Source: Caulochytrium protostelioides | Taxonomy: Eukaryota; Chytridiomycota; Caulochytriomycetes; Caulochytriales; Caulochytriaceae | Assembly (NCBI GenBank): GCA_003615045.1 | Contig: ML014128.1 | Location: 118,356-182,355 of the forward strand | DNA length: 64,000 nucleotides | Direction of reading: 5' to 3' | Part shown: positions 8,350 through 45,240 of the stretch, piece by piece | Layout: each line of letters starts with the position of its first letter | Numbering within the stretch: position 1 is the stretch's first letter | Program-made: the position numbers and the translations under genes | The notes under the pieces: generated by a model | The model's input: the letters and a program-made list of their open reading frames with translations, nothing else | Database searches by the model: none | What the model was told of the DNA's origin: nothing

Positions 8350-9330
8350 ATGGCCCCCAGGGGGCCCCCACCGAGGCAGTAGCGCAGTCGATTCATTTCC
8401 GGATGAGCTTGCCGATCGTGGGCTGCCGCCGCGCTGACCCGGAGGTGCGGCACACTGTGACGGGTAGGGCCAAACAGCGTCGACGATGAACGCGGCATGG
8501 AGATCGCGGTTCACCAACTGGCCATTGGTGGAATCACACCACAGCAACCCCCGAACCACGGTCTCCTGGCGCCCGCCTTGACTTGGGTTTCAGGACCACA
8601 TGCGTCAGGGCATCCACTCGGGTCTTGCGGACCGGGATGACCGGCGTCGGCGCGGTGGAGGGAGCGCCCATCTCGGTCATGCGGACCCGATTGACTGCCG
8701 TCGGCCCCGTCGAGGGAGCGTCGGCCCAGGTCGCGCGAGCGAACGGCACGGCCGTCGGACCCGGAGTTTCACCTTGGCCAGGACCCGATGGGTCTCGGCA
8801 AGTATCGGGGTCGTGCGGAACTCTTCGACCAGGACGGTGCGTAGCCGCTAGGCACATGCCGGGTACGCGCGAGATGGCGAGATGGCGATCTCGCCCTTGC
8901 CTCCGGGGGGAAAACTTGGATGCGCCATAGGCGACCACCACTTCAGCGACCACAGGCTCCATCGCCGCAGCCGCCCCCTAGGCGACGCGGTTCAAGAACG
9001 GGGCAAAACACGCGCTGCTTGCCTCGGTACAGCCGTAGTCGCTGGCATAGCCAGCGCGGCTTTAGATCCTCGGTCCACAGCGGCTTATACTCGGCGAGCC
9101 ACACCTCCAGGATTTAATGGTGCGCTGCGAGCGGTGTGCCTTTCATGCTGACCTCCGATAGCCGCTGCAGGGGCTTCTGGAGATCGCACCGCCAAGTCAC
9201 TGACTACTTTTGGGCAGCTTTCATGCCAGCTTCCACATCGTCTTGCTTTCGGGTCAACCTCGAGCTCTCGGCGTGGTCGTCGGGCCGCTCCATAAAATGG
9301 TCCGGCGGGTGTCGTTCCCAAGAATGTTGT
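8350..9330 (-). mobile_element. Fanzor (eukaryotic TnpB-like, OrfB_Zn ribbon) element relic 1
   Basis: Decayed C-terminal half of a Fanzor nuclease gene, read on the minus strand in several frames. In order: SRLTRKQDDVEAGMKAAQ (about 9270-9215), then LEVWLAEYKPLW and KPRWLCQRLRLYRGKQRVF (9115-9000), a typical Fanzor basic segment. After a frameshift near 8955 come VVAEVVVAYGASKFSP, then RTVLVEEFRTT (8842-8808), HVVLKPKSRR, VVRGLLWCDSTNG and the RuvC-III-like VNRDLHAAF (8520-8486). The last retains the catalytic-position Asp, and the Glu before FRTT is also kept. At least two in-frame stops (near 9212 and 9116) and several frameshifts make it non-functional. The 3' edge carries a GGCCCCC/GGGGGCC palindrome at 8352-8366. 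No 5' end was recognised. Confidence 0.85.
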
Positions 9331-10134
9331 CCTCATGTGAGCGGGGGCGGGGGTATCTGAGGAGAGAGGCTGATTATAGGGTGGCGCTTGCGAAATGCCA
9401 GGGTGGCCGCATACTGCTCTGCGGCCCTGACCAAGGAGGTGCCTTCGTTGCAGGCCCCTATCAATCATGGCCAACCCCTGCATTTTCAGGGGTCCCTGCG
9501 TCCCACACGCCAGGTTCTTCGTCCCGCCCCGTGCGCCCCCCTGCATGCATCGCCCCCAACCGCCCTGCACACGGAAGGCATCTCAAGCCATACCTCGTGT
9601 AGGCGCAGGGGCGACTTACGCGCCGCGGTCCTACCCGGCCCACATCATACGAGGTGCAGCAGCGGAAGGCCACCCGCATCGCATCATGCATTCAAACACC
9701 CCTTGGCGGGGCTGCTACCGTTGTCTCGGGTCAGCCAAGACGGGGAGACGCGTGAAGAGCATCGCCTGCGCCATCTATCAGACCCCCCATCGCGATGCCC
9801 TATGCATTCTAGCGCGACTATATAAAGCAGACAATCGCGACATGATGATGATGCTGCCCGCACAACGATTGAAGAGTTGGAGCCGATGCAGAGCCGGATG
9901 CCGATATCGTTGCCGCCCCCATGCATTCGACACTAAAGCGTCGCTGAACTCCATCCTCCAGTTCCTGATTAGCGCCGCCGTTCGCGGGTGTGCCAGGTGG
10001 TATTATAGCTGCCGGCGTATTGCTCTGGGGCTATCTGTCTGCTCCTGTCCGTCCTGCGGGCTGTTTCCACTTCTCCCTCGCCCCGTCCCCCTCTTGCCGC
10101 TCTTCTGTCACTGTCCCTGAGCCAGCAGCCTGTC
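9331..10134. other. Region 5' of the orphan secreted-protein gene
   Basis: No gene recognised. The N-terminal part of Fanzor relic 1 could extend into it but is not identifiable. It includes the probable promoter of the gene starting at 10135. Composition is noticeably less GC-biased than in the housekeeping regions. Confidence 0.45.
9819..9827 (+). promoter_or_regulatory. TATA-box candidate (TATATAAAG)
   Basis: A canonical TATA sequence lies about 310 bp upstream of the ATG at 10135 in an otherwise GC-rich neighbourhood. The distance implies a 5' UTR of about 280 bases if it is used. Confidence 0.4.
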
Positions 10135-11622
10135 ATGTTTCGCTGGTGCCAGGCGAGCCTGGTGCTTGCACTGACCGTGTCGAGCACGTGTCCGTTGGCA
10201 ACGGCCCTCGCCGCGCCATCTCAGCTCTCCATCAACCATGTCTCGTTAAAAGTCGATCCATCGTCGAAGCATGTCTCGTTCAAGGGCAATCACATCAGCT
10301 CCACTCATCAGGATGCCGAGACTGCAGTACCATCGTCTCAACCCAACAAATTTGATCAAATGATGTGGCTTCCTGCCGAATGGCCGACTCCGACCTCTCT
10401 CCGCTCTGACTATACTAAAGCTGCCGGTACCCTCCAAACTTCCCTTGGTGATGTAAAGGGTATGTGGACCGATCCCACGCTACCGTGGGTTCCATCGCCG
10501 GGCAATCAAGGAATCCATGTCGAACTGCCACGTATGCGAGCCGTTCTCTTGAATGAAATCAAAGATCATACCGGCTCAAACATCAGGGACCCTCTGACAG
10601 AATTTGCACTCGCCATCCAGAATTTGGATAAGTCCCTGCCCGTTTCCGAGGCGCTCACAGGAGAAAGCGATGTGCCACGTTTTGAGATGGTTGACGTTGC
10701 TCGAGTGAGCGATAATTTTGAAACAGTCCATCAACGCTTCGTTGATGTGGCTATGGCCGCAAGCCCTCCAACGCAATCCAGTAAAACCGAGATCGATAGC
10801 TTGTTCTGGTTTGTCGAAGCGCTGGACACGATGGTCGGCCCGGATACCCATCGGGAGCCGTGGATAGATTGGCTCCCTGAGCTGGACGAACAAGGACTGT
10901 CGAAAGTCGCACTGCGTCAACTGGCTGAAATCATGAAATTCAACGGATTGCAGGTCAATCGCCATCACGTGTTGCGGCTGTCAATTGCCTACGCCGATCT
11001 CCTCAAACTTTGCAGCAAAGACGATGCCGTCTCTGAAATATCTGAAGTACACCAACTCCCGCATGGTTACAACATGTTGTCAGAATACGAACGATACAGT
11101 GTCATCGTGCGTGCAAGCTGGTTGCCTCGAGAGATGACGTATCAGCACAGATTCGAGTCAGCGATGCAGGCGGTTCTGCACGCCCGTGGGCTCGGTGAGT
11201 CCATGGTCGACTTGAGCCCTGAAAATTTCCAATCAGAAATGAACCGCTATGTCGACGAAATCGCAAGCTACTACGTTTCTGAGCGCGAGCGTGTCAGGAG
11301 CGACCTATCGGAATTCAAGAACAAGAACCCCGACTGGCCGCCAGCCTCATTCACGGTGAATGACTATTTTTCACAGCTTATCAACGCCAAACTGAATCGC
11401 CACTTCGTGGATAAGACTCGGCAGTGGCTTGCGCCTACCAAAACTTCAGGCCATGCAAATCGCGATGCAGCTGAAAACAGCAGGTTCATTTCTCGTCAGA
11501 ATCCCTTGCGCCCGGTATCTCGGGAGGCAGCACCGACTTCGGGTGCTGGGGTGCTCTCAACTTTTCATAGGTTTGGACACGAAACTGATTTTGTTCGTTT
11601 GAGCAAATCCCTGGGGAGATAG
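10135..11622 (+). CDS. Orphan secreted protein (495 aa) of unknown function
   Basis: Not recognised as a member of any known family. The N-terminus has a textbook signal peptide (MFRWCQASLVLALTVSSTCP, then LATALAAPS), and no later membrane segment is seen, so a secreted or lumenal protein is likely. The rest is predominantly alpha-helical by eye, with few Cys, no catalytic motif and a basic C-terminus ending KSLGR. Codon use and base composition differ from the neighbours: many A/T third positions against nearly all G/C in the housekeeping genes. The gene lies between two Fanzor relics of the same orientation (8350-9330 and 11840-12425). That composition and setting suggest a lineage-specific, possibly transferred or fast-evolving gene. 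An effector-like role is speculation. Confidence 0.75.
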   Translation: MFRWCQASLVLALTVSSTCPLATALAAPSQLSINHVSLKVDPSSKHVSFKGNHISSTHQDAETAVPSSQPNKFDQMMWLPAEWPTPTSLRSDYTKAAGTLQTSLGDVKGMWTDPTLPWVPSPGNQGIHVELPRMRAVLLNEIKDHTGSNIRDPLTEFALAIQNLDKSLPVSEALTGESDVPRFEMVDVARVSDNFETVHQRFVDVAMAASPPTQSSKTEIDSLFWFVEALDTMVGPDTHREPWIDWLPELDEQGLSKVALRQLAEIMKFNGLQVNRHHVLRLSIAYADLLKLCSKDDAVSEISEVHQLPHGYNMLSEYERYSVIVRASWLPREMTYQHRFESAMQAVLHARGLGESMVDLSPENFQSEMNRYVDEIASYYVSERERVRSDLSEFKNKNPDWPPASFTVNDYFSQLINAKLNRHFVDKTRQWLAPTKTSGHANRDAAENSRFISRQNPLRPVSREAAPTSGAGVLSTFHRFGHETDFVRLSKSLGR

Positions 11623-11839
11623 TGCGCACCGTCGCCTGCCTGGGACTAGGGAGTGTGGAGTGAGAGACTGCTCTTAGCCGCTCGCCAGATGCCGCGTGGA
11701 CTGCATGGCGGGTCGTGCTGCTATTGGTCATATTTTTTAATGGATATCACCGCTTTCGGAGTCTTGCGATCCACGTTTGTGTTTTTGTTCTTTGAGCTGT
11801 GCTCCAGTACGGGTCGGGCGAGGCGAGCCCTACTTTTCT

Positions 11840-12425
11840 AAGAATATAAAGGTTGCCCGGTGAGATAACTTAACCCGACCAACATGGTCGCCTTAGTGCC
11901 CCCAGGTGGGGGCCTCAAGGAGGCAGCCCGCATGAGATTTGGCGCACAGATGCGCTTGCTGACGACGGGATGCAACCTGTCTAGTCCCGAGATGCGGCGC
12001 AGCGCCGCAGGTTTGACCTCTGAGGCCAGGCAGCGTCGGATGTTCAACGCGGCATTGGGAGCGCGGTTTACGTACGTACCGTTGGAGAAATGGTATTTCA
12101 GCAAACCTCGAACCACGGACTTCGTGTGGCGGCGTGGCACTTTAATGGAGGACGAGAGTCGTCCCTGCATGTACCTGAGTTGTCGGCAACACTTCAACCG
12201 ATAGGCTGCGGCCACGCTGGGCGCGCGCCTTGTACGCCCAGGATGTTAGGAGATGTTGGAACGGAGAGCTCTTGACCGCGCCTTCGGCGACGCGGTTCAG
12301 GACTGTAGCCAACCCACGCTTCTGGAAAGTCAGTCGCCTGGCCGATCACGGGTGCGACGACTTTGTTGTTCCCTCGTACCGCCACTGGCGGCTCGGAACC
12401 CACCGCGCGGCCTGCCCATTCGCGC
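11840..12425 (-). mobile_element. Fanzor element relic 2
   Basis: Second decayed copy of the same family on the minus strand. Seen: VVAPVIGQATDFPEAWVGYS and PEPRRRRRGQ (about 12365-12275), IKVPRRHTKSVVRGLLKY (about 12140-12090) and the RuvC-III-like block YVNRAPNAALNIRR (12075-12034). The catalytic-position Asp is lost: the NRDLNAA type has become NRAPNAA. A long in-frame tail runs to a stop near 11838. The 3' edge carries a perfect GCCCCC-AGGT-GGGGGC hairpin at 11898-11913, in the same relative position as the palindrome in relic 1. Only the last 120 or so codons stay in a single frame. Confidence 0.82.
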
Positions 12426-13429
12426 GTGCGCGGCACAACGATTGGTGGTCTTTGCCGATCGGCCGTCACCGTCGCCGTCGCCGGCATCGCCATCGCCATC
12501 ATCGCTGACTGCTGGTCGATGATCGCTGGCCGATCGCTGGCCACCGCATCGGCAGCCGGACCGTGCCGATCCCTGCGTCAGAGTGCGCGGCGCTTAAAGC
12601 CCTTCCGCGCTCCCGGCTATGTGGGCACTGGTGTTCGCCTCCGTCCTGACGACTCACGGTCATGCCGCAGGCCTTCGCGCTTGATCCCACCTTCCAGCCC
12701 GGCTGAGCCAGGGCCTCCCTTGGGGCCGCGACAAGGCTCAGCCGCAGGCGGCCGTCGCGCCGCTCGAGTCTTGGCGCAGCGCCTACGAAGGCATGAGGCC
12801 GGACGCGTATGGCACGGCCGGCCGGCCGACCCCGCGCCGCACGGCGCGCCATGGCTCCCCGTCGAGGCTTCCCGCCGACGCGTTCGTCGTCCCAGCGCCG
12901 CCCGGGATGCTGCCGCATGGCGCAGCCGTTCGAGTCCGCGTCGCCCGGGCTCGATGGGGTCCTCCGCGGCGCCTTCGAGCATCGAAGCGTCAGCCACGTG
13001 GCCGTCTGGTCTCGCTGTATCGGCGGGGCAGCGATCGTCGTTGCTTCACGCGTTTCATCATCGAGTTCGATGGGCGCACCACTCGCTAATGCTCGACAAT
13101 GCTCTGCTCCATCCCCATCCCGTTTCCGTTTCCGCTCGACTTCACGGAGCTCCGCTTCACTGGACTCGATGCTTCGCTCTGCTCCGCTCCGCTCTGCCAT
13201 ACGCTGCTTTTCTCCGATCCAGCCCAATCCGGTCTGATCCGATCTGACTCCCTCTCCGCCGACTCCGAAAATCTCCATCCCTGCCAGCGTTGCCGTTCCT
13301 AGCCATCGCGAGACTCGCGTCGGGCTTTGCTTCAGACCGGCTGCATCGCCCGCCTCCGCCATCCGAGACTGGTCCGACATCGCCCGCCCTGCTGCTGTCT
13401 CCGACCGCGCGTGTGTCGATACCCGCACC
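12426..13429. other. Intergenic region upstream of the BAG-domain gene
   Basis: No gene supported. About 13100-13260 holds pyrimidine-rich, CCGCTCTGCTCCG-like repetitive sequence that could be the promoter of the gene at 13430. Open frames on both strands are low-complexity and unconvincing. Confidence 0.5.
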
Positions 13430-14705
13430 ATGCGTCTCCACATCAGCTGGCAAGGCCAGCACTTCGACGTCCAGCTGCCCGACGCGTATGCAACGCTGGC
13501 GCAACTCATGGATGCCTGCTCCCGCAGCACCGGCGTGCCCATCACCGCCATGAAGCTCCTGCGCAGCGGAGGTAACGCCCCCATGCTCTCGAACCCCTCC
13601 ACCGCGTCACCGGCGCGAGCCACGGCGGCGTCCCCGCTCCCCGGCGCTCATGCCAACGCTCAAACCGGCTCCCGGACCGGCTCCCACCGCGGCGGTGGCG
13701 GCCCCTCACGTCGATCGCCGGCCGCGCCGTCCAGCCCGGCGCCCGAGCGCTCTCGCTTCGTGCAGGACATGTGGCAATCGGCGACCAGCTGGCTGAGCAC
13801 GACCGCGGCCGAGCTCGGCGTCGGCAGCGGGCCGCGGCCCTCATCGGCGGGCGCCGGACCGGCAGCCAACCCGGTTCCGACCGGGGACGGGTCCTGGAGT
13901 AGGTTCGTCTCTCTTTCTCTCTACTCTCGCTGTCTTCCGATGCTTCCGATTGCTCTTCGGCGACGCGCGTGATGGGCGTGGTGCTGACTCCCATCCGGAC
14001 GCGATCGACTCACCCTGCCATGCTTTTTTTTTGTTTCCGCACGATGATCTGATGCTGGAATGCTGGGATGATCTGATGGGTTGGGATGCCGCCCCGTCCT
14101 TAGCCATTATGCGCGACCCCGGGCGGCCCTTGGCCGATTACGATGTGGGCGACGGCTGCAGGATTATGATGATCGGCAGCGTTCAGCCCGCGCCGGCGCC
14201 GCCCGCGGCCCCGGCCCGCGCCGCAGCCGCGTCGACCGCCGTCGTCCCGCCTGAACCGACGAACCCGCTGATCCGCATTAACCAGATTTTGGCACGCGTC
14301 CAGCGCGAGTACGAGCCAAAGGTCCGCGCCTTCGTTGCATGGTCCCAAACCCCCGGCGCGTCGACCGCCGACGCCGCCATGATGGGCACGCAACGTCATA
14401 CCAACGAAATGCTGGAACGCACTCTAGAGCAGCTGGACGCCGTGGCTGTGCCGGCCGGCGGCGGTGGTCGCGATGCGATGGCGGGCGCCGGGGCGGGTGC
14501 CTCCGCAGAGGCCTCGGACGGCGCCGACGCCGTCGGAAGCACGGCCGCGCGCATCAAGCGGAAAGAAGCCGTACAGTTCACGCAGAGTCTGTTGTCACGG
14601 CTGGATGCCGCACGGGGCCGCGCCGTGGCGGCGACCGAGGCGGCGCAGCAAGCGCAGCAGGCAAACGCATCCGCGCATCCCCGCTCTGGCAACCGGCGAG
14701 GGTGA
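13430..14705 (+). CDS. UBL-BAG domain co-chaperone (Hsp70 nucleotide-exchange factor), two exons
   Basis: BAG proteins bind the Hsp70 ATPase domain and promote ADP release. Exon 1 is 13430-13898 and exon 2 is 14104-14705, with an intron at 13899-14103 (GTAGGT donor, TTAG acceptor). Exon 1 ends one base into a codon, and joining restores the frame. An N-terminal ubiquitin-like fold (MRLHISWQGQHFDVQLPDAY, then ITAMKLL) is split by an insertion of about 100 Ser/Pro/Gly residues and resumes in exon 2 as IMRDPGRPLADYDVGDGC and RIMMIG. The BAG domain is near the C-terminus: NEMLERTLEQLDAVAV, then ARIKRKEAVQFTQSLL and SRLDA, with a Gly/Ala insert between the helices. The predicted protein is about 356 aa. 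Without the intron, exon 1 would stop soon after the donor and the second half of the UBL would be orphaned. Confidence 0.85.
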
Positions 14706-14826
14706 TGGCCATACCCGCCTCGATAATAAAATACCCGATCAGTCATACAAGAAGCATCGTATCTTCTTTCCTTCCTCCAAGAGCAGCACGGTCCGTTTTC
14801 ATTTCGCGGATTGACATGGAAGCGAG

Positions 14827-17322: not shown

Positions 17323-17353
<31 letters not shown>

Positions 17354-17659
17354 GCCGCCGCTGCTGCTGCCGCTACTGCTGCTGTGGCGATCACCGTCCA
17401 TCCGCCCGCCCCGGGCTCCGATCGACGACGCCATCGGCCCCCGGCGCCGCCGCCGCCGCCGCTCAGCCCCGCGCCGCCCGAGGGCGTGCCGAGGGGATTC
17501 GGGCGCCGCGCGGTCCAGCACGCGGCGCCGGGGGCCTTGCAGGGCCGCGCGGCGAGGAGTGTGAAGGAAACCAGTTTTTGCGGATCCGTCGGATTTGTTT
17601 TTAGGAAAGGGCCGAACGTCGCGGGATTCAGAGCCGTGAGGGCGGCGGCGACGGCGGCG

Positions 17660-21253: not shown

Positions 21254-21269
21254 GCACTCAACGGCCCGC

Positions 21270-21410
21270 AGGACCCGGGTATGCCCAGACGCATGAGGTC
21301 CTGATACCAGGGCAACGCCGGCATCAGGGGATTGTAGTCCGAGGTTTGCTGGGGTATAAAGCTACCAACGGCAACTCAATGCCGCCTTAAACAGCCGGCG
21401 CTATCTGCCT
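21270..21410 (+). mobile_element. Fanzor element relic 4 (short 3' fragment, plus strand)
   Basis: A short C-terminal piece of the same Fanzor family, opposite in orientation to the other four. YAQTHEVLIPGQRRHQG then IVVRGLLGYK matches the corresponding block of relic 3 (YVQKNVVLKPGQRRRQG). After a frameshift, NAALNSRRYL at 21378-21407 is the decayed RuvC-III-like motif; the catalytic Asp region is deleted. It directly abuts the ABC-transporter fragment, whose stop lies about 20 bp upstream. Confidence 0.75.
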
Positions 21411-22707: not shown

Positions 22708-25700
22708 TCATGAGGCAGCGGAGGGGGCCGCGGCCGCGGCCGCGGTTTGGCAGGCGATGTAGTCGCGCATGAGCCCCGCGATCTGGGCCGACTGCTGAGT
22801 GCTGAACACATACTTGGTGCCCTCGGTCACGACGAGCAGGTTGCGCGGGGATGGGCTGAAGCTGAGGATGTCGGCATACGCGTGGTGGACAATCGCATCC
22901 TTGTCGTAGCGCTGCAGGATGTAGACGCCGTCGTGGCCGACGGCCAGCCAGCAGGCGCGCGGGATGGCCGTGGTGTAGGTCTGGACGACGTCGAAGACGG
23001 TCACACCGTAGAGCGGCCAGGCGCGCACGCGCTGCATGTACGTCTGCTGGGCCTCGGCCACGCTCATCTTTTTCATGCCAGCATGCTGAACGCTGATGGC
23101 CTGCTTGAGGAAGTCGTGGGCCGACTCGGGTGCAAGGCGGGCCGGAATCGTTTCGACGACGATCGCCCCGTAGTCCGAGGACGAGCGAATCTGGCACTCC
23201 AGCGCAGCCAGGTAGATGGCTTCCTCCTCAGTGACCGGGTACAAATCGTTGCGGATCTCCCAGCTCGCCTGCGCCTTCAGCAGCGTGCTCTCCAGGTCGT
23301 TGCCCGGCGGCTCATTCGTGAGGAACATGCGCTTCTTGAAGATGAACTGCACCGACTCGTCGGTCGCGTTGTGCTGGCGGGCAAAGTACTCCCACTTGTA
23401 GAGTATGTCGGAGATCCGCTCATCCGCGCCCAGGTGCCGCTCTAGGCCCGAGTAGGTCTCGTAGATGCCGAACCCCCCCGCATTCTTGAGCTTAATCTTG
23501 TCCGTGAAGTGCCGCTGCACATCGGCGGCCGTGTCCCACGGGTCAACCGAGACGGCGCGGTACTGCCCGTCGAGAAATCCAAAGCGGATGCGCAGGTGTT
23601 TCATCTCGGCCGCGGCCGCGATCTCTGGGAACGACGCCGGGAACTTGCGCGGCCGGTCAACCAGCGCGCACCCGCGGTTCAGCATCTTCGTGCAGAACAC
23701 GGCGCACGCGGCTTCCTGACGTCGCGGCTTCTTGGACGCCATGTTCACGTGCACATACTTGCGCAGGTGCGCGCGGTACAGATCGAGCAGCTTGCCGCTT
23801 GGCGTGCACAATCCCAGCAGCGAGACCATCAGCCGCCAGCCTGTGAGCGCCGCAGGGCTGTCGGGCAGCTGGTGGCTCGTCGTCAGCTTCAGCAGCTGGG
23901 CGAAGATCTCGGCCGCGAACACCGGCGCTTCGAGGCACTTCTCCATGATGTTCTGCAGCTTGAGCATGTGCTCCGGATGGAACTGCGGCCGCGGCGTCGC
24001 CTTGGCGCCCATGTCGATAAAAAGCTGCGAGGCCGCGACCGCCAGCAGCTCGAACCCTTGCGGCAGGTCCTTTGTGAGCGGCCGCAGCAGCGGCGCCGGG
24101 TGGTAGGACCAGTCGGCAAGCGTGTACGCCCCTGGATCCTGGCTCGGCGTGGGAAGCGCCTCGGCGCTCGTAAATGCGTTCGAAGACAGGTTGCCGTGGT
24201 CCGCCAGGGACTGCGTCGAGTTCTTGGCGTTGCGGAAGCCGAAGCGGCGCAAGCTGGCACTCGGCTTGGCGTTGCTGCCGGCGTTGCTGCCGCTGCTGCC
24301 GCCCGCAGCGCCACCGCCGGCACCCAGTGCCACGAGCGTCGGCGAGACGGCGGTGCCGTGGCCGCCGCTGCCGCCCGAGGTCGCCTGCGACCACAGGTAG
24401 GACGGGCCCGGGATGGCGAGGAAGTCGGTGCTGAGAAGCTGAGCGCGGCACTTGTCGAGGTCACGGCGCAGCAGCTGGTAGTCAGCCGCGGACAGCGTGC
24501 TGTCCTTGATCTTGCGGCGGTTCTCGTTGTCCGGATAGTAGTCGCGGATCAGCGCGACAATCTCCTCGCCCTGGCCGGTCGCGAACCGGTAGGACTCCTG
24601 GCGCTCGCCCTCTTCTTCGTCGTAGATGTTGGCCTGCAGCAGAATCTCCTGTTCCTCGCTCTCGAACTGCAGCACGTTCGCATAGTGGAATTTCTGAATG
24701 GTTTCGCGCGACTTGGCGTGCACGAACTCCATGCCCTCAGCCGAAATCACGAGCGTAATCGTCTCCGGCCACGACCAGAAGCCCTTGTAGCGCACCTGGA
24801 ACTGGGCCGCGCCATAGAAGCGTAGGTTCTTGACTGTCTCGAGGAACAGCGCCTTGGCCCGCGCCGGCGACGTCCCGCGGAGGGCGCTCCAATTCATCGT
24901 GATCTGGGCGACAGTTTCTGTGAGCGACTCGCTGCTGCTGAGCACCCGCGGGCTGAGCCACATGGACGGCGCCTTAGCAAACACGGCCGCCGCATCCTGC
25001 GCGTCAGCAGGCGCGTCGCCGCCGGCCTGCGCACGCAGCGCCGCCAGCTGGCACGCCGTCTTCAGCGTAATCGGGAACTGGTCCCGCGCGACCGCATCCA
25101 CCGCTTGCGAGTACAGCAGCAGGTACTCGATCTGATCCGTGATCGGCTCGTAGATGTTGCGGAAGTGCCGCTTCTTGAGCACGAGATTCGCGTCGATGTT
25201 GACATAAGCGCCGTTGGCGCCGGGCGAGAGGACGCCGCTGCCCGTGGCGCTGCCCGCTTCCTCGCTGCGGCGCTTCTTCATGAGGCCGAACCCGCGCAGC
25301 GTGCCCATGCCCGAGGGCTTAGCTGTGGCGGTCTTGGACTGCGCGGCCTCGCGCTCCCACAGCGAGAACACATCAAACACGTATTCAGAGCCGCGGATCG
25401 CGCGCTCCTGGCCCGTGCGCCACAGCACTTCATAGATCGACCAGCCCGAGTAGTCCTCGAGGTTGATGAACTCGGCCATCATGCGGACGATCTGCGCTGC
25501 GGTCGTCGACGCCTGGACGCGGATGTCCATTTCCTGGCCGTCCGAGAAGTGGAACTTGGCCAGAATCGGCTGCGCCAGCTTGGTATGCGTGATTTCCAGC
25601 GCCGACGGCGGCATGCGCCGCGGGCCGTTGAGCACCGTCGTTTTGATGTTGTCCTGCACGAGCCGGATGAGCTTAGGCACGAGCGGCGACCGCGACACAT

Positions 25701-28700
25701 CCGTCTCGGCCTGGGCGCGCGCTACGTGGGCAAAGAGGAACTTGGAGAGCTGCTTCGTCGGCGGGAACGCCGCACTTACTAGGGCGAGGGCGACCCACAC
25801 GCACGGCAGCACCGTTTCGGCATAGTTCTTGGGTGCCTCGTCGCTCACCAGACCCTGCCGCATCAGCTGCACAAAAATCTCGTCCCGCAGCTCGGGATGC
25901 AGAATGCCCAACTTGATCAGCTCCTGCAGCGCCGCGGTCTGGTCCTCGGGTTTCTTGTGGCCCGACTCGATCGACCGCTGCAGCTGGCGGAAAGCCTCCA
26001 TCGACAGCTCATTGAGGTCGCCGGCGCCGGAGATCGTGATGGCATGCGGCAGCCCGCCGCGGGTGTACCCCATGAAAGCGTTCATCAGCTGGCGCTTGAG
26101 CGAGGCGGAGGCCTCGCCGCCCGCGCGGCCGCCCGTGCTCGCGAAGAGCTTGGACTCGCGCTGGCTGAGAGCGCCGCTGCCGCTGCCGGGCGTGAGCGTC
26201 GATGCCGCGACGTAGCCGGGCGCCATGCAGACAAAGTGACGTTCCGCATACACGGCAAAAGCAACCTCGGGCGCCTCCGGATCAATCTTGGAGCGCATCT
26301 CGACCTCGAGCGAGCTGTGCGAGATCGAGGCCGCCAGGTGCTGTGTCGAGCTCGCGAGGCGGTCGCGGCTGCCGGCGGCGGTGGTGCTCGCGAGCTTCAC
26401 GCCGGGCTCCTGCTGCGCCAGCGAGTGCAGCAGCGACGCCGTCGTCGTCGGCGTCTCGTTGCCGACGCCGTCAGCCGTAGGCGCAAACGAGCTGGGTGAC
26501 GCGAGGCCGCTCGCATTGAGCGCGGGCGTCGACTTGCCGGCCGACACATCGACCGACAAGCCCGATTTGCCGGGCTTGCCTGCGGCGCCGGCGGTGCCAC
26601 CGGACGCTGACGACATGACAGCGCTGGAGAGCCCCGCGGCAAACGAGGCCTGCTTCGTGGTCCCCGCAGGGGGCGTCTGGATGAGCGAATCGATCTCGGA
26701 CGCGAGCAGGTTGGCCATATGGGCTAGCTGCGCCGCGCCGCGGATGGTGCCGGTGGCCGCCGAGGCCGGGTCGAACGTGGACAGGAACGAGAACATCGAG
26801 TCGAGATCGCGGCTCTGGGCGCTGGCGAGATTGTTGGGGTCGGCGCCCGGCGCGGCGGGCGGGCCGAGGGTGGCGGTCGTGATCGACGGCGCGGCCGCGT
26901 TCTTTTTCTTGTTGAGCTCCTGCATCGCCGTGATCTCGGCAAAACGCATCTGCGCGGCCTCCGTCTGAATCGGCAGCTTCGGCCCCGCCGTGTGCTTCTC
27001 CACGGCCTCGCCGGCCTGCGCGACGCTGGCGCTGGCGCGCGTGGCGGCAGCCGTCAGGGAAGCGAGGGTCGTGGGGTCTAGGGACTTGCGGTGGCCGGTG
27101 GCGCACTCGCGGAGCCGGTCCTCGAGCACGGCACGGACGGCGCGGCGCACGATGAGGCGGCGCACGCAGGCCTGTACCTTGATGATGGCCTGGCGTTGGC
27201 GTCGGTAGCGGCAGCGCTGGACAAAGCCGCGCATGACGGGCGCCAGCACCTGCGCGGCCTGCCGCAGCCGCAGGAACTTGCGGCGCGCAACGTTGCTGCA
27301 CATCGCTTGTTGGATAAGGAGGACTTTTTCACGGAGGACGGCGTCGGCGCGCTCCTGGACGACGATGAGCGCCTCGGCCTTGAGGAAAACTTTGGTCTTG
27401 CCCATCTGGCAGTGCTCGGGCCCGAGCTGGCACGCGTCGATAATCTGACGCGCGGCGGCACGAGCATCGGCCGCGTCGCCGGACCGTAGGCATCGGTACT
27501 GCTTGCTGAACACGTCGAAGGTCATGCGGTTGGGGTAGCCCGCCTTGCGGATGCGGATCGTGTCCAGCATGCCCGAGTACCGCAGCTGCGAGAGCACCAT
27601 GTCGTCGTCAAAGCCGAAAGCGACTTTGCTCGGGTTGGGCTTGATGCAGCGGACATAGTGGGGCGTCGTGGCCGCGAGTGTCGTGACGAGCGAGACGAGC
27701 TGGTTCTTGAAGAGGGTCGACGCCGTCGACCGCGTCGGCTGGCGGACCGTGCCCTTGCTGTCGGGCTCGGCTGTCGGGCGCTTCAGCATCGCCTTGACGT
27801 AGGGGTGGCTCGAAGCGCCAAACACATCAAACACGTCGTCCTGCATCGCGTCGCGGTTTTTCACCAGGAAACCGGTCACCGTATACAATACTTCGCCCGC
27901 ATAGTGCTTGACGCCGAACACCGAGCGCGCCAGCTTCGGCTTGTAGAAGCACGGCTGCTTCGGAAACGTCGCTTCCAGCTTCTGGAGCCACGTCTCGTCG
28001 GTCGACTTGGGAAACCGGGTCTCCTCGTCGAGCAGGGCGAGAATGCCCGCGGGCCGGGCCTCGATGAGGTCCAGACAAATCTGGTTGTCCGAAAAGGCCA
28101 GCTTCGCCCAGCTGATGGCTTCCTTGTCGTACTCCTCCTGCTCCAGCTTGAAGATAAACTGGTTGAAGAACTGCTGCAGCTTCTCGTTCGTGTAGTTAAT
28201 GCAGAACTGTTCGAAGCTGTTCGTCTGGAAGACTTCGAACCCAAAGATGTCGAGCACACCGACAAAGTTGGCGACCTTGTCCTTGGCGACCAGCGAGGTG
28301 TTGATGAACTCGATAATGCGCTGGAACAGGCTGTCGTAGCAGAACTTGGCAATGACGTCGCGGTTGTCGACGGCTTGGTCCAGCTTCAGAGGAACCACGG
28401 TCGTCTCGCCGCGGATCGTCAGCCGCCGCGCGACCAGCACGTGGGTCAGGGCCTTGGCCTCCAGCCCGAACAGCTGCGCCACGCGCTCCACGAGCGCCGG
28501 GTTCGCCACCGTCACGCTTTCCTTGCTGGCGTCCTCCGTGAACTGGATGTTGCCCATCCACAGCACGGCGGAGAGCGCGCGCAGGATGCCGTCCATGTCG
28601 GTCTCGGGCAGGTGCAGGACCTCAAACGCGAGCTTGAGACCTTCCCAGCCATACTTGTCGTTCACACCATCAATCTCGGTGCACTGGCTCTGCGCGAGGT

Positions 28701-29360
28701 AGTGATAGTCGTCCATGGCCCCCAGCTGGTAGCGCTGCTGCTCGTCCGGGGTCGCCCCCGACACCAGCTCGTAGAACACATGGTAGTTGCGTTCGCCGAC
28801 GGCGGGCTTGGCGACACGCGATTTCTCGAGCAGGTAGTTGATGATGTTGGCGCCGATGATCTGCTTCTTGCTGTTGAACAGCACCTGGATGAATTTGCCA
28901 AACCGCGAGGAGTTGTTGTTGCGGATCGTTTTGGCATTTCCGAACGACTCCAGCACCGTGTTAGCCTCCAGAATCTGCTGCTCGACCCAGGACTCCTGGT
29001 TCTGACTCGACGTGACGGCCGTCAGGTACTGCAAAATCACCTTCGTCGACTCCGACTTGCCGGCGCCCGACTCGCCGCTGATAATGACGCTCTGGTTGAC
29101 CCCGAGGTTGCGGACATTCGCATACGCCGTCTCCGCCAAGGCGAAGATGTGCGGCGCGTTGTCCGGCAGCCGCTTGCCGTTGTACCTGCGCACCGCCGCC
29201 GAGTTGTAGATATCGAGCTGCTCGTATGGATTCAGGGCGACGAGATCGCGCCCGTATACGTATAGATCAGCTTCTCCGCATACCGCGCCTTCAAGTTCTC
29301 CAGGATCGCGTCCTCCGTGAGCACATCCAGTGTGATCATATCATCCACGTGGGCAGCCAT
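22708..29360 (-). CDS. MyTH4-FERM unconventional myosin (about 2,216 aa; apparent 1-base frameshift near the N-terminus)
   Basis: Actin-based motor with two C-terminal MyTH4-FERM cassettes, the architecture of myosins VII/XV/XXII, which link actin to membrane or microtubules. The start ATG at 29360 gives AAHVDDMITLDVLTEDAI and LIYTYTG without an SH3-like N-domain. The frame then shifts by one base at the CCC at 29251-29253 and continues as DLVALNPYEQLDIYNSAAV. P-loop GESGAGKSEST is near 94-104, relay LDIFGFEVFQTNSFEQFCIN follows, and IQ-like helices are at about 672-745. A Ser/Thr/Ala-rich linker follows. MyTH4-1 starts near 1092 (MGYTRGG), then FERM-1. MyTH4-2 is near 1753 (LLRPLTKDLPQG), and FERM-2 starts near 1920 (LRIRFGFLDGQYRAVSV) and runs to the end. 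No SH3 is seen between the cassettes. The long tail frame has no other break. Confidence 0.93.
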
Positions 29361-39206: not shown

Positions 39207-42002
39207 ATGCATCTCCCGTCCGCGGCTGGCGCCGCATCGCCCGCATGGGCCGCCGCAATGCTCACGGCCGCCGCAACGCCGCGTTCGGCTCGGTCCCTCG
39301 TCCGCGTCTCCCACGGTCTCGCTGCCGTGGACCGCGTCCTTGCCCTGCGCGCGCCGACCCGCATGCCCTGCCGAAATAAGTTTACGAAACGGGATCGCCT
39401 CCGCGTGATTCGCGGTGATGCGACATGGTTTGCGCAGGGATCGCTGCCCCTCGTCAGTGCTCCCTTGCCGACGGCGGGAGCAACGATGTCCTCGACGGAT
39501 CCGGCCCTCCCAGCCTCGGAAGCGGCTCCACGGAAAGAGACGGACCCCGCTGCCGCCGCGCCAGCACGCACCCTCACGCCGTCGGCACCAGCAACGCCGT
39601 CATCGTCGCCAAGACCCGTGTCGGCGTCTCTGTCGTCGACAATGGTGGATGCGACCGACGCGGCCTCGGCCGAGACGAGCACGGGCCGAGTCTACTGGTA
39701 CACGGATCCCTACCTGTTGGACCGCGCGTGTACCAAGCTGGCGCACGAGCGCCGGTATGACGAGGTTGTCGCGCTGCTCGCCCGGCACCGCATGTCCGGC
39801 ACGCCTGCCGTCTGGGCCCACGTGCTACGCCACCTTGAGCAGGCGGGGCAGACCCAAGTTGCCTGGGATCTCTATCGGACGATGCGCGAGCGTCGGGTCG
39901 GGCTGACGCCGCAGGCGGTCACAACCGTGATCCGCGTGCTAGAGCATGCAGTTTCGGCTGCTCGATCAAATCGGCGGACGGCCGTCTTTCCTGCTGACGT
40001 TGCGCCTGCCGATATTGCGCCTGCTGACGCTGCACCTGCCAGCGTCGTGCTTGCTCGCGCGACTCCAGCGACCACCCGTGCTGACGCCCCTGCGGATGCC
40101 CCAACGGCTAACGCATGGGCTCACACCCGCGCGGCGGATCCCTCGTCCGAAGTGGACGTCATGACGCTGCGCCACCCGACCGTGCGCACGCTGAGCGATG
40201 CGCCCGTTCCTCATCTCATCAGTCAGGCCATCCGGGTCTGGCGCCACGCGGTGCACCAGGAAGCGAGATCGCGTCAGCAGGCGCGAGCCGCCGCGCGTCG
40301 CGCCAACGCACCCTTGTTCGCGGAGGGCCCGAACCACGAACTCGTCATTGAAGCCGACGCCGACGCCGACGCCGACGCCGATGCTGCCGAGCCCGGCAGC
40401 TGGGGCCTCGCCGCCGACTCGGCACCGCCGAACGTGTTCCACATCAATGCGCTGCTTTCGCTGCTCTGCCGTGCCGGCCCGGCGTACGCGCCTTGGGTCG
40501 ACCACCTCTGGGACCATGCCGATACCACGGGCGTCGTCGACAAAGTGACCGTGACCTACATGTACGCATATCTCGCGGCGCTGCCGGATGCCGCCGCTGC
40601 CTGGCAGCGGGCACGCATGATCTGGGCGCGGCTCGTCCGAGACGACGCCACGACAGCCGCTGCGGCTACCGTAGCGGCTGCGGCAACGGCGGCCCCAGCG
40701 CCGTCCAAGGGCCAGGCCGCGGCCCGTCCGCGCGGGCCGACGGAGCCGGGCGGCCGCGGGCGGCCGTCGCGCCAGTCGTCGCCGTCGCCGGCATCCACCA
40801 ATGTCCCCGCCGTGCCGTGGACCGTCACGCCGGACAGTTTCCACGTGATGTCCCATCTCCGTGTCGCCCTGGGCACCCGCGATCGCGCTGCGTACGCCTT
40901 GGCCTGGCACGACGTCGGGCCCGTGCTCACGACCTCGCTCACCCTGTTCAGCGCCGACCTGCCGACGCCCGCTCCCTCGCCTCCTGAGACCGCGGCGTCG
41001 CTGCGGCGGTCGATTCGCGTGACGGCGCCCGTCCTCAGCCTCGCGCTCCGGATGGCGGCTTCGGTCGCGACGCCTGCGGCGCCGTCAGGGACACCGCCCG
41101 TCCAGTCACGTCGCGATCGTCTCGGCGCCGCCGCACCCGCCGCACCTCGCGCTGCGGCGCCCGACGCCGCGACCGCGGCTATCATGGCCGACGCGACCCG
41201 CTTCCTCGACCGCCAGACAAAGCGTGTCAGCGCCGGCATCGGCCCCGGCGGCGCCATCGATGCGCGCGTGATCCGCGAATGGGTCTGGCTGCTCCACGAC
41301 TATGCACCACAGCAGTTCGAGTCGACCGCGTTCCTCTGGGACCGCTTTTTCCGTCGTGACCGCGAGGCTCAGGCGTCGCCCAGCACCTTGCTCGAGCCGC
41401 TCCTCCTCTGGTGCCATCTGGCGGCCCGCACGGCCGCGTCTCGGCCACCGCCGTTTTCAGGGCATCTCCGGGGCTCCCGAGACTCGCCCGCCGGGGCTCG
41501 CTCGCCCGCACCTGCCGCGGCGGCCGTCGCCGGCACGTTGCCGGAGGATGCCGTGACAGCTGGCGCAGCATCGCCGTCGGCACAGGTAGCCGCATGGGTC
41601 CAACGCGCGCAGCGGCTTTGGATGGCCACCGAACACGCGTGGGATCGTGATCGCGCGCCTTGGCGCGCGCTGATGCACACGTTGCATACGATGCGACTGC
41701 ATGCGCAGCTGAACAGCCACGCCGCGGTCGATCATGTCGCGTGGCTCACGGCGCACCCCTTTCTACGGGTCTTGCTCGCGCTGGCCGATCAGGAGGCCAC
41801 ACCTTTGTCGTCAAACCAGGTCAAGCAGGCGTTGGAACCGCAGGCGAAGTGTCTGGAGCTCTACCGGGAGCTTCAGGCACAGGCGACGCGGGCCGCCCAC
41901 CTGCCACCGAGATGCGTTCCATCACGATGTGCCTCAGGCGCCGCTGACGCCAGTAGCAACATCGGCACGCCGACGGCATTAGCCTCTACCACCCGCTTGT
42001 GA
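39207..42002 (+). CDS. Pentatricopeptide-repeat-like protein, probably mitochondrial
   Basis: Likely organellar RNA-binding factor. It has 931 residues in one exon. The N-terminus (about 60 residues) is rich in Ala/Arg/Ser without acidic residues (MLTAAATPRSARSLVRVSHG), typical of a mitochondrial presequence. PPR-like helical hairpins occur at about residues 175-230 (RRYDEVVALLARHRMSGTP; QTQVAWDLYRTMRERRVGLT) and again near 410-480 (NVFHINALLSLLCRAGPAYA; TVTYMYAYLAALPDAAAA). Long Ala/Thr/Pro and Asp/Ala (ADADADADAD) insertions separate them. No SMR or endonuclease domain is evident. Fungal PPR proteins act in mitochondrial mRNA stability or translation, but the target cannot be inferred. Confidence 0.72.
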   Translation: MHLPSAAGAASPAWAAAMLTAAATPRSARSLVRVSHGLAAVDRVLALRAPTRMPCRNKFTKRDRLRVIRGDATWFAQGSLPLVSAPLPTAGATMSSTDPALPASEAAPRKETDPAAAAPARTLTPSAPATPSSSPRPVSASLSSTMVDATDAASAETSTGRVYWYTDPYLLDRACTKLAHERRYDEVVALLARHRMSGTPAVWAHVLRHLEQAGQTQVAWDLYRTMRERRVGLTPQAVTTVIRVLEHAVSAARSNRRTAVFPADVAPADIAPADAAPASVVLARATPATTRADAPADAPTANAWAHTRAADPSSEVDVMTLRHPTVRTLSDAPVPHLISQAIRVWRHAVHQEARSRQQARAAARRANAPLFAEGPNHELVIEADADADADADAAEPGSWGLAADSAPPNVFHINALLSLLCRAGPAYAPWVDHLWDHADTTGVVDKVTVTYMYAYLAALPDAAAAWQRARMIWARLVRDDATTAAAATVAAAATAAPAPSKGQAAARPRGPTEPGGRGRPSRQSSPSPASTNVPAVPWTVTPDSFHVMSHLRVALGTRDRAAYALAWHDVGPVLTTSLTLFSADLPTPAPSPPETAASLRRSIRVTAPVLSLALRMAASVATPAAPSGTPPVQSRRDRLGAAAPAAPRAAAPDAATAAIMADATRFLDRQTKRVSAGIGPGGAIDARVIREWVWLLHDYAPQQFESTAFLWDRFFRRDREAQASPSTLLEPLLLWCHLAARTAASRPPPFSGHLRGSRDSPAGARSPAPAAAAVAGTLPEDAVTAGAASPSAQVAAWVQRAQRLWMATEHAWDRDRAPWRALMHTLHTMRLHAQLNSHAAVDHVAWLTAHPFLRVLLALADQEATPLSSNQVKQALEPQAKCLELYRELQAQATRAAHLPPRCVPSRCASGAADASSNIGTPTALASTTRL

Positions 42003-42074
42003 TGCCACATCGATTATTGTTATAAAGATGTAGGACTGTTCGGGGACAAATAAACGCAACCACCGTACCCTCCT

Positions 42075-42430
42075 TCGTGCCCCCAAGGGATCCCCCAAGA
42101 ATGCAGTCCGCATTAAAATGTTTCGCTGAATGTTCTTGCTGACCACGGGCTGCGACGTGGCTTGCCCGGGGATGCAGGTTCAATGACGGATGCTCAGGAT
42201 GGCATTGAGGTTTTGGGTCACAAAATAAACCCGCTGGGAAAGATGACGCATTCCCAGGTCTCTGACCGCGACCCTTATGCACCAGCTCTACCATGGTCTC
42301 AGAAGCACATTGATCCCTGCATGTCCCTGGCACGTCCGGAACTCGGCGACCGGTGCGGATTCGCTGAGCGCACACCTTGGACGCCTCGCGCAACGGAATG
42401 GTGGGCTCTTCCTTTGTCCTCTCAGACTAG
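42075..42430 (-). mobile_element. Fanzor element relic 5 (highly decayed)
   Basis: The most degraded recognisable copy, on the minus strand. In order: PLREASKVCAQRIRTG (about 42404-42355), which aligns with relic 3 PTARAYKACVQRFRTV. After a frameshift comes VAEFRTCQGHAG (about 42352-42315, the idEFRTS-type segment with its Glu kept). Then FVTQNLNAILSIRH (42225-42184) aligns with FVNRDLNAALNIRR, with the catalytic Asp changed to Asn and a stop directly after. The shared 3' edge (GTGCCCCCAAGGGATCCCCC at about 42077-42096) is present but its stem is mostly lost. Confidence 0.68.
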
Positions 42431-43078
42431 AACCGCACCATATTCAGTATCTTTATTCCAAGATAAATAAATCCGCGCTGGTCCGTGATGATGACGACGC
42501 CCTACACCGTAGAGGGCGCTTGCACTCACGTCGAGCGGTTGACCGTTATCGCGTGTTTTCAAATGGATTTGCCGGCGCAGGCCATAACCCAAAGTCAGCA
42601 GGAAGTGATGGACTCGAAGCCAGGCGAGTTTCTTCGAAGATTCAATCAAGAAAAGGAAGCGTCATTCAAATCTGATATTGCGAATGCCGCTTCACCAGTT
42701 CCGGTAGGAGATTGGAGAGCGATGTGGTCTTCACCACGTCGCCATCTTGACTTTCTGGTCGAGTATGCGCCGGTAGTGTTGGGAGTGGGAATTACATTTT
42801 CAAACCGCCTCTCATTAGCGTGATTTTGGCCAGCAGGATCTCACCCATCATTTGCTTCTCAAGCGAAGAGAGCCGGGCGATCGATTGCTTCCTGATACAC
42901 GCGCCACCGTCGCGGAAACTCATTGTTTCGGCTGTGGCCCTGTTGGGCCGGAACAGTTTAGTACCTTCTCTCTCTGCCACCACCGCCTTTTCGTGCCGGC
43001 TTCCCTCCGGAGGGACCCGGAGGGATCATGGTGATCGTATCGATTGTCTCACCGGATAGCCAAATATGCCTTAAAAAA
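42431..43078. other. Lower-GC island, no assigned gene
   Basis: A 112-residue open frame (+, 42485-42823; contains DLPAQAITQSQQEVMDSKPG) and a short minus-strand frame (42792-42983; IARLSSLEKQMMGEILLAKI) look more protein-like than the average chance frame, but neither is recognised. Their composition resembles the orphan secreted genes. They may be remnants. Confidence 0.35.
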
Positions 43079-44176
43079 TTAGCGGCCATGGAAGACAGGC
43101 TTTCGCTTTTCCCGGAAGGCGTTAAGACCTTCGAGGCGGTCCTCGGTCTGAATCACCTGCGCATAGCACTGCTGCTCGAGAATCATGCCCGACGCTTGAT
43201 CCATCTGGCTTCCCTGATGGATCGCGACCTTGGCCATGCGCATCGCAATCGGGCCTGCGGGCAGCATTGCCTGCGCCAAATGCAGAGCCTCATCGTATGC
43301 TGAACGACCCTCTGAAGCCGCGCGATTGGCTAGACCGATCCGGACGGCTTCGTCGGGACCCACCGGCGTTGCCGTAAACGCTAGTTCCTTGGCCTTGGCC
43401 AGCCCAACCACGCGCGTCAGCCGCTGGGTGCCACCAGCACCCGGGATAATGGCGAGCCGAGTCTCGGGCACGCCCAGCCGCGCCTTGGCGCCGCCGACGA
43501 CCCGTAGGTCGGCCGCGAGTGCGAGCTCCAGCCCACCGCCGAGCGCGGCCCCGTCGATCGCAGCGATCGTGGGCATCGGCAGATGCTCGAGACGCGTGAA
43601 CGTCGCTCGCAACGCATTGACAAACGCGCGCACTTCCTGCGGCTTCATCGCGGCACGCTCCTTGAGATCCGCGCCGGCGCAGAACACACCGGCCACGGCG
43701 CTGCGCACAATAAGCACGCGCGCCAGATCGGGCTCCGTCTCGAGCTGCGCGAGGCACGTCGATAGCTGGCTCAGTAGCCGAACGCCCAGTGCATTCATGG
43801 CCGCCGGGCGGTTCAGCGTCAGCACGGCGATACCCGCATCGGCCTCAGACGAGAGGAACTGGAGCACGCATTCGCGTGGATCGTGGCCCTTGTCGATAGT
43901 GGTCGCTTGGGTGTCAAGCGGCACGGCGCCCCCGGTGGTCGCTGATGGGATCGATGTCGCTACCGACGCCGCTGGTGCTGATCCTGCCGATGAGGGGCGT
44001 CCGGTAGTAGTCTTCAGGCCATGCACGCGGGGCAGCGCTGACCCCACGGACGCCAGCGCGGGCACGAAGAGCCCTGATCGCCTGGCCGAGGGCACACGAG
44101 ATGGCAGCCTGGAGAGCGCCGCACACGGTTCCGTATGCAGCCGGAGCCCGAGCCGGAGCGAAGTATATCCCGCCAT
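43079..44176 (-). CDS. Mitochondrial enoyl-CoA hydratase / AUH-type methylglutaconyl-CoA hydratase
   Basis: Crotonase-family hydratase, 365 aa. The ATG at 44176 (AGYTSLRLGLRLHTEP) opens an Arg-rich presequence, so the protein is likely mitochondrial. The oxyanion and acyl-CoA segments (LNRPAAMNALGVRLLSQLS; FCAGADLKERAAM) are present. Both catalytic glutamates of hydratases are kept: GGGLELALAADLRV and GVPETRLAIIPGAGGTQRL. The ADLKER and GAGGTQRLTR motifs resemble AUH, which hydrates 3-methylglutaconyl-CoA in leucine breakdown, but generic short-chain enoyl-CoA hydratase is possible. It is housed in an island with Fanzor relics on both sides, yet the gene itself is intact and GC-rich. Confidence 0.92.
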   Translation of the reverse strand: MAGYTSLRLGLRLHTEPCAALSRLPSRVPSARRSGLFVPALASVGSALPRVHGLKTTTGRPSSAGSAPAASVATSIPSATTGGAVPLDTQATTIDKGHDPRECVLQFLSSEADAGIAVLTLNRPAAMNALGVRLLSQLSTCLAQLETEPDLARVLIVRSAVAGVFCAGADLKERAAMKPQEVRAFVNALRATFTRLEHLPMPTIAAIDGAALGGGLELALAADLRVVGGAKARLGVPETRLAIIPGAGGTQRLTRVVGLAKAKELAFTATPVGPDEAVRIGLANRAASEGRSAYDEALHLAQAMLPAGPIAMRMAKVAIHQGSQMDQASGMILEQQCYAQVIQTEDRLEGLNAFREKRKPVFHGR

Positions 44177-44269
44177 CGGAAAACACAAAGTGGACGATCG
44201 TCCGGCTAGAGATTGAAGGAGAATTCGTGTAACAAATGAAACGGATGAACATCGCTCTGGGAATCGGTG

Positions 44270-44600
44270 GGATACTGGGCTCCCGTGCAGGGCGCCGATC
44301 TGAGTCCTGTCATCGGCCACGAAAAAGCGGGCGCGCCCATCAAATGCTACAGCCCCGAGCTCATGGTGCACCCGGTCATTAAGTTTCCGGGGGCTGACGA
44401 GGACGCGTCGCGGGCGGCGCGCCAATAGGCCGACCAAGTCATGAATCTCCTGACCCACCTGCACGTGCTGAAGATGGGGCCCGGCCTCGGCCAGCACCCG
44501 CACATGCCGCGGGTAGCCGGCGACGTCCTGGCCCGCGTCGCCGCCGACTGCCAAGCCCAGGCCGAAGCCTCGGACGGCGCGACCGCCCGGCCGACGGAGC
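44270..44600 (+). pseudogene. NAXD (ATP-dependent NAD(P)HX dehydratase) pseudogene fragment
   Basis: A remnant of the NAD(P)H-hydrate repair kinase-fold enzyme. One frame reads GYWAPVQGADLSPVIG, then APIKCYSPELMVHPVI, matching the family GADL...IKSYSPELIVHP block. After a TAG at 44426 the same frame resumes with LLTHLHVLKMGPGLGQHPHM, the GPGLG substrate/nucleotide loop. It lacks the N-terminal part, the segment between the YTGAP-like and GADL motifs, and everything after about 100 codons. It lies upstream of the AUH gene and 55 bp from the 3' edge of Fanzor relic 3. It is clearly non-functional. Confidence 0.8.
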
Positions 44601-44654
44601 CGCGGGGCTGGTTTTATTATCGACTGGGATCGCTGGGCTGGTTCCCTTAGATCG

Positions 44655-45240
44655 GTGGTGCCCTCTAGGGGTCCCCCGACCGAGGCAGCGCGCATTTTGG
44701 TTCATTGTCGGATGACTTTGTCGACCGGGGGGGCAACCTGGTTGGCTCGGGGTTGCGGCACAACGCCTCCGGTCTGGCGGGTAAGGCCAGGGATCGTCGG
44801 ATGTTCAACGCGGCATTGAGGTCGCGGTTCACAAACTTGCTGTGGGTGGCATCATTGCCGGGGGCGGCTTCATACCATAGCAACCCTCGGCGAACGATGC
44901 CCTGGCGCCGGCGTTGACCGGGTTTCAAAACCACATTCTTCTGGACGTACACCCGGGTCTTGCCGACCGGCTTGACTCGCATCGGCGCGGCCTGATGAGC
45001 GCCCGCCCGGGACGCGAAAGAGATTGACACGATCTTCGGGTCCCACTTTGGTCAGATCCGGCACAGACCAGGGTCGTCCGGAACTTGTCGAAGAGGACGG
45101 TGCGGAAACGCTGAACGCACGCCTTGTATGCCCGAGCCGTCGGAACCCCGGCGATCTTGGCCTTACTTGTTTTTCGACCAAAGCAGGCAGTCGGGCGAAA
45201 TTCTGTCAGCCGTGCAATGGCCGCTCACAGCTTCGACGAT
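44655..45240 (-). mobile_element. Fanzor element relic 3 (best-preserved 3' end)
   Basis: A copy of the same Fanzor family with the least decayed C-terminus. In order on the minus strand: KIAGVPTARAYKACVQRF and RTVLFDKFRTTLVCAG (about 45160-45055; the usual Glu before FRT is Lys here). After a frameshift: TRVYVQKNVVLKPGQRRRQG, IVRRGLLWYEAAPGND and SKFVNRDLNAALNIRR (44843-44796) with the RuvC-III Asp intact. The frame ends at a TAG inside the conserved 3' palindrome (CCCTCTAGGG, 44661-44670). The zinc-ribbon cysteines expected between FRTS and NRD are mostly missing. No full-length frame exists. Confidence 0.88.

Follow-up and report, generated by a model that had tools for sequence, protein, structure and literature searches.

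What are the five protein fragments that recur in one 64,000-nucleotide stretch of the genome of the fungus Caulochytrium protostelioides (contig ML014128.1, positions 118,356 to 182,355; hereafter the window), and how did they come to lie there? This study was concerned with these fragments, which carry the C-terminal blocks of a Fanzor protein. Fanzor and TnpB proteins cut DNA at sites matched by a guide. The window copies are dead and unable to perform guided DNA cutting, and C. protostelioides carries the element at several hundred places, so five in a 64-kb window are unremarkable. We consider it probable that all five derive, as dead copies, from a non-autonomous, Fanzor1-bearing element which was spread by a one-ended process anchored at its 3' end. 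The family is unusual in three respects: the several hundred places it occupies, its 3'-anchored copying without target-site duplications, and its membership of a branch without the first zinc pair. No report of this family, or of a retroposed Fanzor, appeared among the open-licence papers listed. The copies in the window, and two smaller features within them, are as follows.

Copy A, 8316..9456, minus strand: frameshifted relic, truncated at the 5' end and with a deletion inside it, running from a RuvC-I remnant to RuvC-III and the 3' untranslated region (UTR).
RuvC-I Asp codon of copy A, 9311..9313, minus strand: read by translation; the remnant is GNDTRRT, the PG of DPG now being TR.
Copy B, 11834..12323, minus strand: C-terminal relic; RuvC-III Asp changed to Ala.
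Copy C, 21262..21407, plus strand: short C-terminal relic; RuvC-III RD lost.
Copy D, 42023..42385, minus strand: C-terminal relic reaching the 3' UTR; RuvC-III Asp changed to Asn.
Copy E, 44652..45166, minus strand: C-terminal relic; RuvC-III Asp retained, RuvC-II Glu changed to Lys.
Partial conserved 3' UTR hairpin of copy E, 44652..44690, minus strand: about 12 nucleotides (nt) past the stop codon at 44704-44702; from the sequence and the family alignment with its covariation.

The original prediction placed the same C-terminal blocks at these five places, and all of the blocks it quoted were found by translation, in agreement with a DNA profile of the family. This profile was built from copies in the same genome, including copies A (locus L034) and E (locus L001) and not B, C or D; thus, only B, C and D represent independent matches to it. 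It matched the window in ten pieces (E<=1), every one within the five places, and gave zero matches in the reversed window. The nhmmer matches lay at 9358-8317 for copy A (E 1.2e-286; chained extent 9456-8316), in two pieces for copy E (best E 4.9e-106), in three for copy B (best E 4.1e-47) and in two for copy D (best E 1.8e-24), while copy C (E 2e-35) was detected by DNA only. In addition, tblastn with eight full-length outside relatives matched copies A, E and B, with best E values of 2.2e-30, 6.1e-21 and 1.8e-15 among them, and copy D (E 1.5e-4). Copy A corresponded to residues 381-617 of the relative P0002, in pieces in three frames, copy B to residues 472-615 and copy E to residues 509-608; copy D was matched by one of the eight relatives, P0003, and copy C by none of them. 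The RuvC-III state of each copy was also as first described: translation gives VNRDLHAAF at 8.5 kb (copy A) and FVNRDLNAALNIRR at 44.8 kb (copy E), VNRAPNAALNIRR at 12.05 kb (copy B), VTQNLNAILSIRH at 42.2 kb (copy D) and, with RD gone, QLNAALNSRR at 21.4 kb (copy C). The RuvC-I remnant of copy A and the missing glutamate in RuvC-II of copy E, which reads FDKFRTT, were absent from that description. The flanks of copy E (window 44400-44608 and 45290-45500) are repeated elsewhere at 94-95% identity, at separate sites (C170:35900-36108 and C18:101426-101636).

The genome searched comprised 20.95 Mb in 337 contigs. A 17-base RuvC-III pattern, allowing three or fewer mismatches, gave 645 matches, compared with 158 for the backward pattern. 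Three stretches of P0002 of near-equal length were also used as queries. Residues 35-208 gave 93 first-look candidates, all of which were scored (84 matches), residues 234-407 gave 227 (150 scored, 157 matches) and residues 450-617 gave 1015 (150 scored, 181 matches). Matches outnumber copies because one match is one piece. The identities of the matches were comparable among the three stretches, and the reversed C-terminal stretch gave 0 candidates.

The shape of the copies supports the proposed process: they end alike on the 3' side, differ in where they begin and carry internal deletions. For example, 68 non-overlapping loci have a common 3' end and many different start points, and 63 of 85 chained copies reach the 3' end, while 3 more are cut by an edge. 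Starts within residue 50 were found in 4 of the 25 copies having enough upstream DNA (a total in which copy E appears twice), and these 4 may be 3 because the N-terminal start of L040 depends on a permissive threshold and finds no confirmation in the DNA. Internal jumps of at least 300 profile positions occur in 11 copies by our own count. There were 57 internal joints listed, the majority of which represent the variable insert of the seed copy; one joint is common to L082 and L021, and no splice signals were seen by eye at the internal-deletion joints. The copies examined vary in a minisatellite-like tandem insert that lies between RuvC-II and RuvC-III, as seen in L077 and L061. Three copies have a common 5' boundary about 20 nt upstream of the ATG, as judged by eye, and one of two loci picked by their N-terminus retains the two ends but has a deletion between them. 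Profile position 198 was considered as a 5' end and rejected; at that point the seed copy diverges, and the family continues further upstream.

Two other arrangements were noted among the copies. At position 2032 of L022 and positions 1414-1415 of L028, truncated copies stand head to head with zero bases between them and their 3' ends outward. The protein P0012 (CXG81DRAFT_23488; G000:C6:206925-207350 and 208883-210124) consists of a Fanzor relic piece (residues 1-142) fused to an unrelated stretch 1.5 kb downstream. Its residues 141-554 match contig C6 with 100% identity and residues 1-142 with 99%. Either the gene model is chimeric or the relic has been exonised.

What kind of source gave rise to the dead copies? 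Changes were counted in five in-frame segments and compared with the expectation under the same mutation spectrum. Private changes, present in one copy, look neutral (125 synonymous, 373 replacement and 24 stop, versus 121, 379 and 22 expected), and changes common to at least 10 copies favour synonymous ones (42, 59 and 0, versus 27.5, 70.1 and 3.5 expected). The synonymous and replacement counts differ between private changes and those shared by at least 4 copies (Fisher P 3.9e-6). These counts support a past active source, and the contrast between neutral-looking copies and a source with synonymous bias is evidence that the protein mattered during the spread of the element. The median private divergence was 3.1% (51 aligned pieces), which is an upper estimate because the family is only partly sampled. 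The original prediction held that an active member exists or recently existed. Its second part is supported by the synonymous bias of the source lineage and by this divergence; the first found no support in the translated genome search, in which no intact full-length copy appeared among the 71 of 1218 candidates scored with P0002 and the best match spans residues 245-609 and contains a stop.

The assignment of the family to Fanzor1, as originally predicted for Fanzor in general, is supported by a profile match to solved Fanzor proteins and by the Fanzor fold of a close full-length relative. The best match of a profile of relatives and relics was Parasitella parasitica Fanzor1 (PDB 9cf0; E 2.1e-15), with which RuvC-II DEFRT and RuvC-III RD align. 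The family consensus of RuvC-I is GNDPGRTNIF, with the DPG motif present and Asp in 21 of the 22 copies covering it; within the window RuvC-I is covered by copy A alone, which reads DTR. The RuvC-II consensus is DEFRTTQVH and corresponds in the alignment to DEFRTSSFC of P. parasitica Fanzor1; its Glu is present in 50 of 56 copies, and the Asp of RuvC-III RD in 62 of 71 copies. The RuvC-II glutamate of Fanzor1 is described, in part of PMC10711439, as lying at an alternative position, six residues ahead of the first zinc ligand, and the glutamate of the family occupies this position too.

These zinc ligands are where the family departs from other Fanzor1 proteins. The ligand counts cover places one to three: His occupies the first in 49 of 58 copies, Thr the second in 47 of 59, and at the third (n=69) Tyr is found in 48 and Cys in 13. 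After the DEFRT-type motif, the CxxC of the P. parasitica and Spizellomyces punctatus Fanzors is replaced by HxxT. The zinc-ribbon family PF07282 had no match in the genome, which fits the lost cysteines. The C4 zinc finger of Fanzor1 is missing, and sources disagree on whether it is defining: the finger between RuvC-II and RuvC-III is called 'strictly conserved' in PMC3627910 (section 6), and 'many' Fanzors have one according to part of PMC10711439. The family was read as Fanzor1 without the zinc feature because the sequence profile and the fold still group it with Fanzor1. The relatives surveyed were the 211 distinct proteins (P0001-P0211) among the matches listed. The glutamate motif was present in 204 of them, and 203 of these 204 were without the first CxxC, so the zinc loss characterizes a wide branch and not Caulochytrium alone. 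P0120 was the sole CxxC carrier among the 204, 12 had Cys at the first place only, and P0120 was also the one of eight relatives tested that lay above the PF07282 cut-off. The zinc-less members among these relatives come in part from green algae and mostly from metagenomes. A large Fanzor1 branch without this cysteine pair makes the role of the zinc finger testable on intact natural relatives.

A hairpin follows the stop codon. Its two-sided pair changes number 41 across 59 copies, whereas shuffling gave 19 on average and 30 at most. The alignment scored is also the one from which the structure was derived, and kinship of the copies can raise the score. The profile ends at a median of 106 nt beyond the stop (43 copies). 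The hairpin matches the S. punctatus omega RNA in position, as given in part of PMC10432273, and its position and pairing suggest that it is likely the scaffold of a guide (omega) RNA. Near the 5' end, a 9-bp hairpin in L065 has one two-sided change in L082 by eye; the 5' hairpin was seen by eye in 3 copies, with fold z of -2.7 (L065) and -0.6 (L082). The 3' tail is short, variable and A/T-rich by eye. In 168 pairs of three 5' ends with reverse-complemented 3' ends, inverted repeats from end to end were no better than shuffled (mean score 13.4 versus 13.7, maximum 23 versus 22).

A full-length element would measure about 2.1-2.4 kb, would extend from about 20 nt ahead of the ATG to about 105-120 nt past the stop, and would hold one Fanzor1 RNA-guided nuclease gene, in which no intron was seen. 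The many dead copies would go back to a few coding sources, through one-ended copying that was anchored at the 3' end and whose machinery was probably taken from another element, as for the Chlamydomonas families CRe-1, -2 and -3. As is established for Fanzor and TnpB, the protein would have cut guide-matched DNA sites and would thereby have favoured the retention or spread of the element.

Several results weigh against this proposal. First, six relic frames gave no Fanzor or TnpB family above the Pfam cut-offs (PF07282 appeared in one of the six, far below its cut-off), and no solved Fanzor was found with one relic, with the relic-only alignment A1 or with P0002 as a single query. The match to solved Fanzors that the original prediction looked for in a consensus of the relics thus appeared with the profile of relatives and relics and not with relics only. 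Secondly, of the 85 chained copies, 19 stop short of the 3' end without being cut by an edge, and L083, the other locus picked by its N-terminus, is without a 3' part in the following 1.9 kb, so that not every copy is 3'-anchored. Third, the synonymous excess persists but is weaker when CpG sites are removed (P 0.012 for at least 4 copies, 0.044 for at least 10), and for changes found in 2-3 copies it is absent (119 versus 129). Lastly, no target-site duplications were found, whereas many truncated CRe copies carry them, and no partner element was found. In the duplication test, 60 copies scored 5.48 compared with 5.71 (standard deviation 0.12) for mispaired flanks; planted 8-bp repeats in a quarter of the copies would score 6.14, and the test would miss duplications of 5-6 bp if only some of the copies had them. 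Helitron_like_N (PF14214) had 0 genome matches, and this RepHel negative is not decisive because the control gave no match anywhere.

The first of these results bears on the alternative, named in the original prediction, that the blocks come from some unrelated DNA-binding family. In its favour, the relics by themselves fall below Pfam and PDB significance and the zinc ribbon is missing, but the profile match to solved Fanzors and the fold match speak so strongly against it that we give it almost no credence. The second bears on whether complete copies of an ordinary transposon were later eroded, the gradient representing better C-terminal preservation. Internal deletions and the N-terminal copy L083 agree with random loss, and loci were mostly chosen by C-terminal matches, which favours 3' ends. 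However, a gradient of 93, 227 and 1015 candidates, with none for the reversed stretch, is not expected from random loss, and selection on the copies did not keep the coding half, because private changes there look neutral. We regard later erosion as improbable.

By what machinery, then, would 3'-anchored copying have proceeded? A reverse transcriptase of a long interspersed nuclear element (LINE) might have copied Fanzor mRNA from its 3' end, usually stopping early. This would account for the 5' truncation with a common 3' end, with the exception of L083, and for the steep 5'-to-3' candidate gradient; the ends are mRNA-like by eye (about 20 nt before the ATG in three copies and an A/T-rich 3' tail), there are no terminal inverted repeats, and the genome has reverse transcriptases (19 RVT_1 matches and the LINE-like L081). 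On the other side, T-rich tetranucleotides were found at the 5' junction in 15 of 66 cases, compared with 22 of 66 further upstream, which indicates no T-rich target; the internal-deletion joints are unlike splicing by eye; the one LINE inspected has a 3' part that, by eye, does not look like the family 3' end; and the planted repeats exclude duplications of at least 8 bp in at least a quarter of the copies, if the ends lie within the windows used. We are somewhat doubtful of LINE copying. It is unlikely, in our view, that a zinc-less Fanzor1 lineage was amplified to several hundred copies via an RNA intermediate, the nuclease gene riding on reverse transcription and not on a DNA transposase. 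By eye, the reverse transcriptase frame in L081 (G000:C311:3600-6600) is LINE-like and has a cysteine/histidine tail.

Alternatively, the family may be a Helitron2-type non-autonomous element with one-ended rolling-circle copying. CRe-1, -2 and -3 of Chlamydomonas reinhardtii, Fanzor1 elements assigned to Helitron2, are often 5'-truncated and have internal deletions, and their 3' ends are almost always intact (Bao and Jurka 2013, PMC3627910); the Caulochytrium copies match this triad. Helitron2 elements have hairpins at both ends; the covarying 3' hairpin would fit this, as might the 9-bp 5' hairpin of L065, and the lack of duplications is as in CRe insertions ending at the consensus 5' end (PMC3627910). 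However, most truncated CRe copies lie between duplications of about 7-19 bp that follow T-rich sites (PMC3627910), and the Caulochytrium copies are without them and have no T-rich excess at the 5' junction; the ends have no inverted repeat, in place of the asymmetric terminal inverted repeats of Helitron2; and RepHel gave 0 matches, with the silent control noted above. We hold this to be a serious possibility, though short of probable. With the CRe precedent, rolling-circle copying may be slightly ahead of reverse transcription, both being possible. In either case the proposed 3'-anchored process would represent a second case of such Fanzor copying, here without target-site duplications, which sharpens the question of how Fanzors move, and relics in the hundreds are now found in a fungus outside Spizellomyces.

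Other features were noted in the window. A 13-bp tandem array lies at 55296-55603 within minus-strand open frames, and a 154-bp direct repeat, 82% identical, at 46106-46490 within an open reading frame (ORF) of 1010 amino acids (45885-48917, minus strand). The ORF of 2161 amino acids at 22708-29193 (minus strand) may encode a myosin with tail domains.

How does the family compare with known systems? Like CRe-1, -2 and -3, it is a multi-copy family with a Fanzor1 gene, 5' truncation, internal deletions and a common 3' end. Unlike CRe, whose ends are Helitron-like and whose genes have 5 or 10 exons (PMC3627910), it was seen without duplications, T-rich sites, Helitron-like ends or an intron. SPu-1/SpuFz1 of S. 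punctatus has terminal inverted repeats of 30-33 bp and intact copies (PMC3627910 and PMC10432273, each in part), whereas the Caulochytrium family is without such repeats and the first zinc CxxC, and no intact copy was seen. P. parasitica Fanzor1 is similar in RuvC-II and RuvC-III and differs in retaining CxxC in place of HxxT. The chlorophyte and metagenomic relatives listed (for example P0002, of 617 amino acids, and those of Tetrabaena socialis and Chlamydomonas eustigma) belong to the same zinc-less Fanzor1 branch; those aligned are without the variable tandem insert of L077 and L061. The nearest among the relatives listed has about 50% identity, and many of them are full-length genes.

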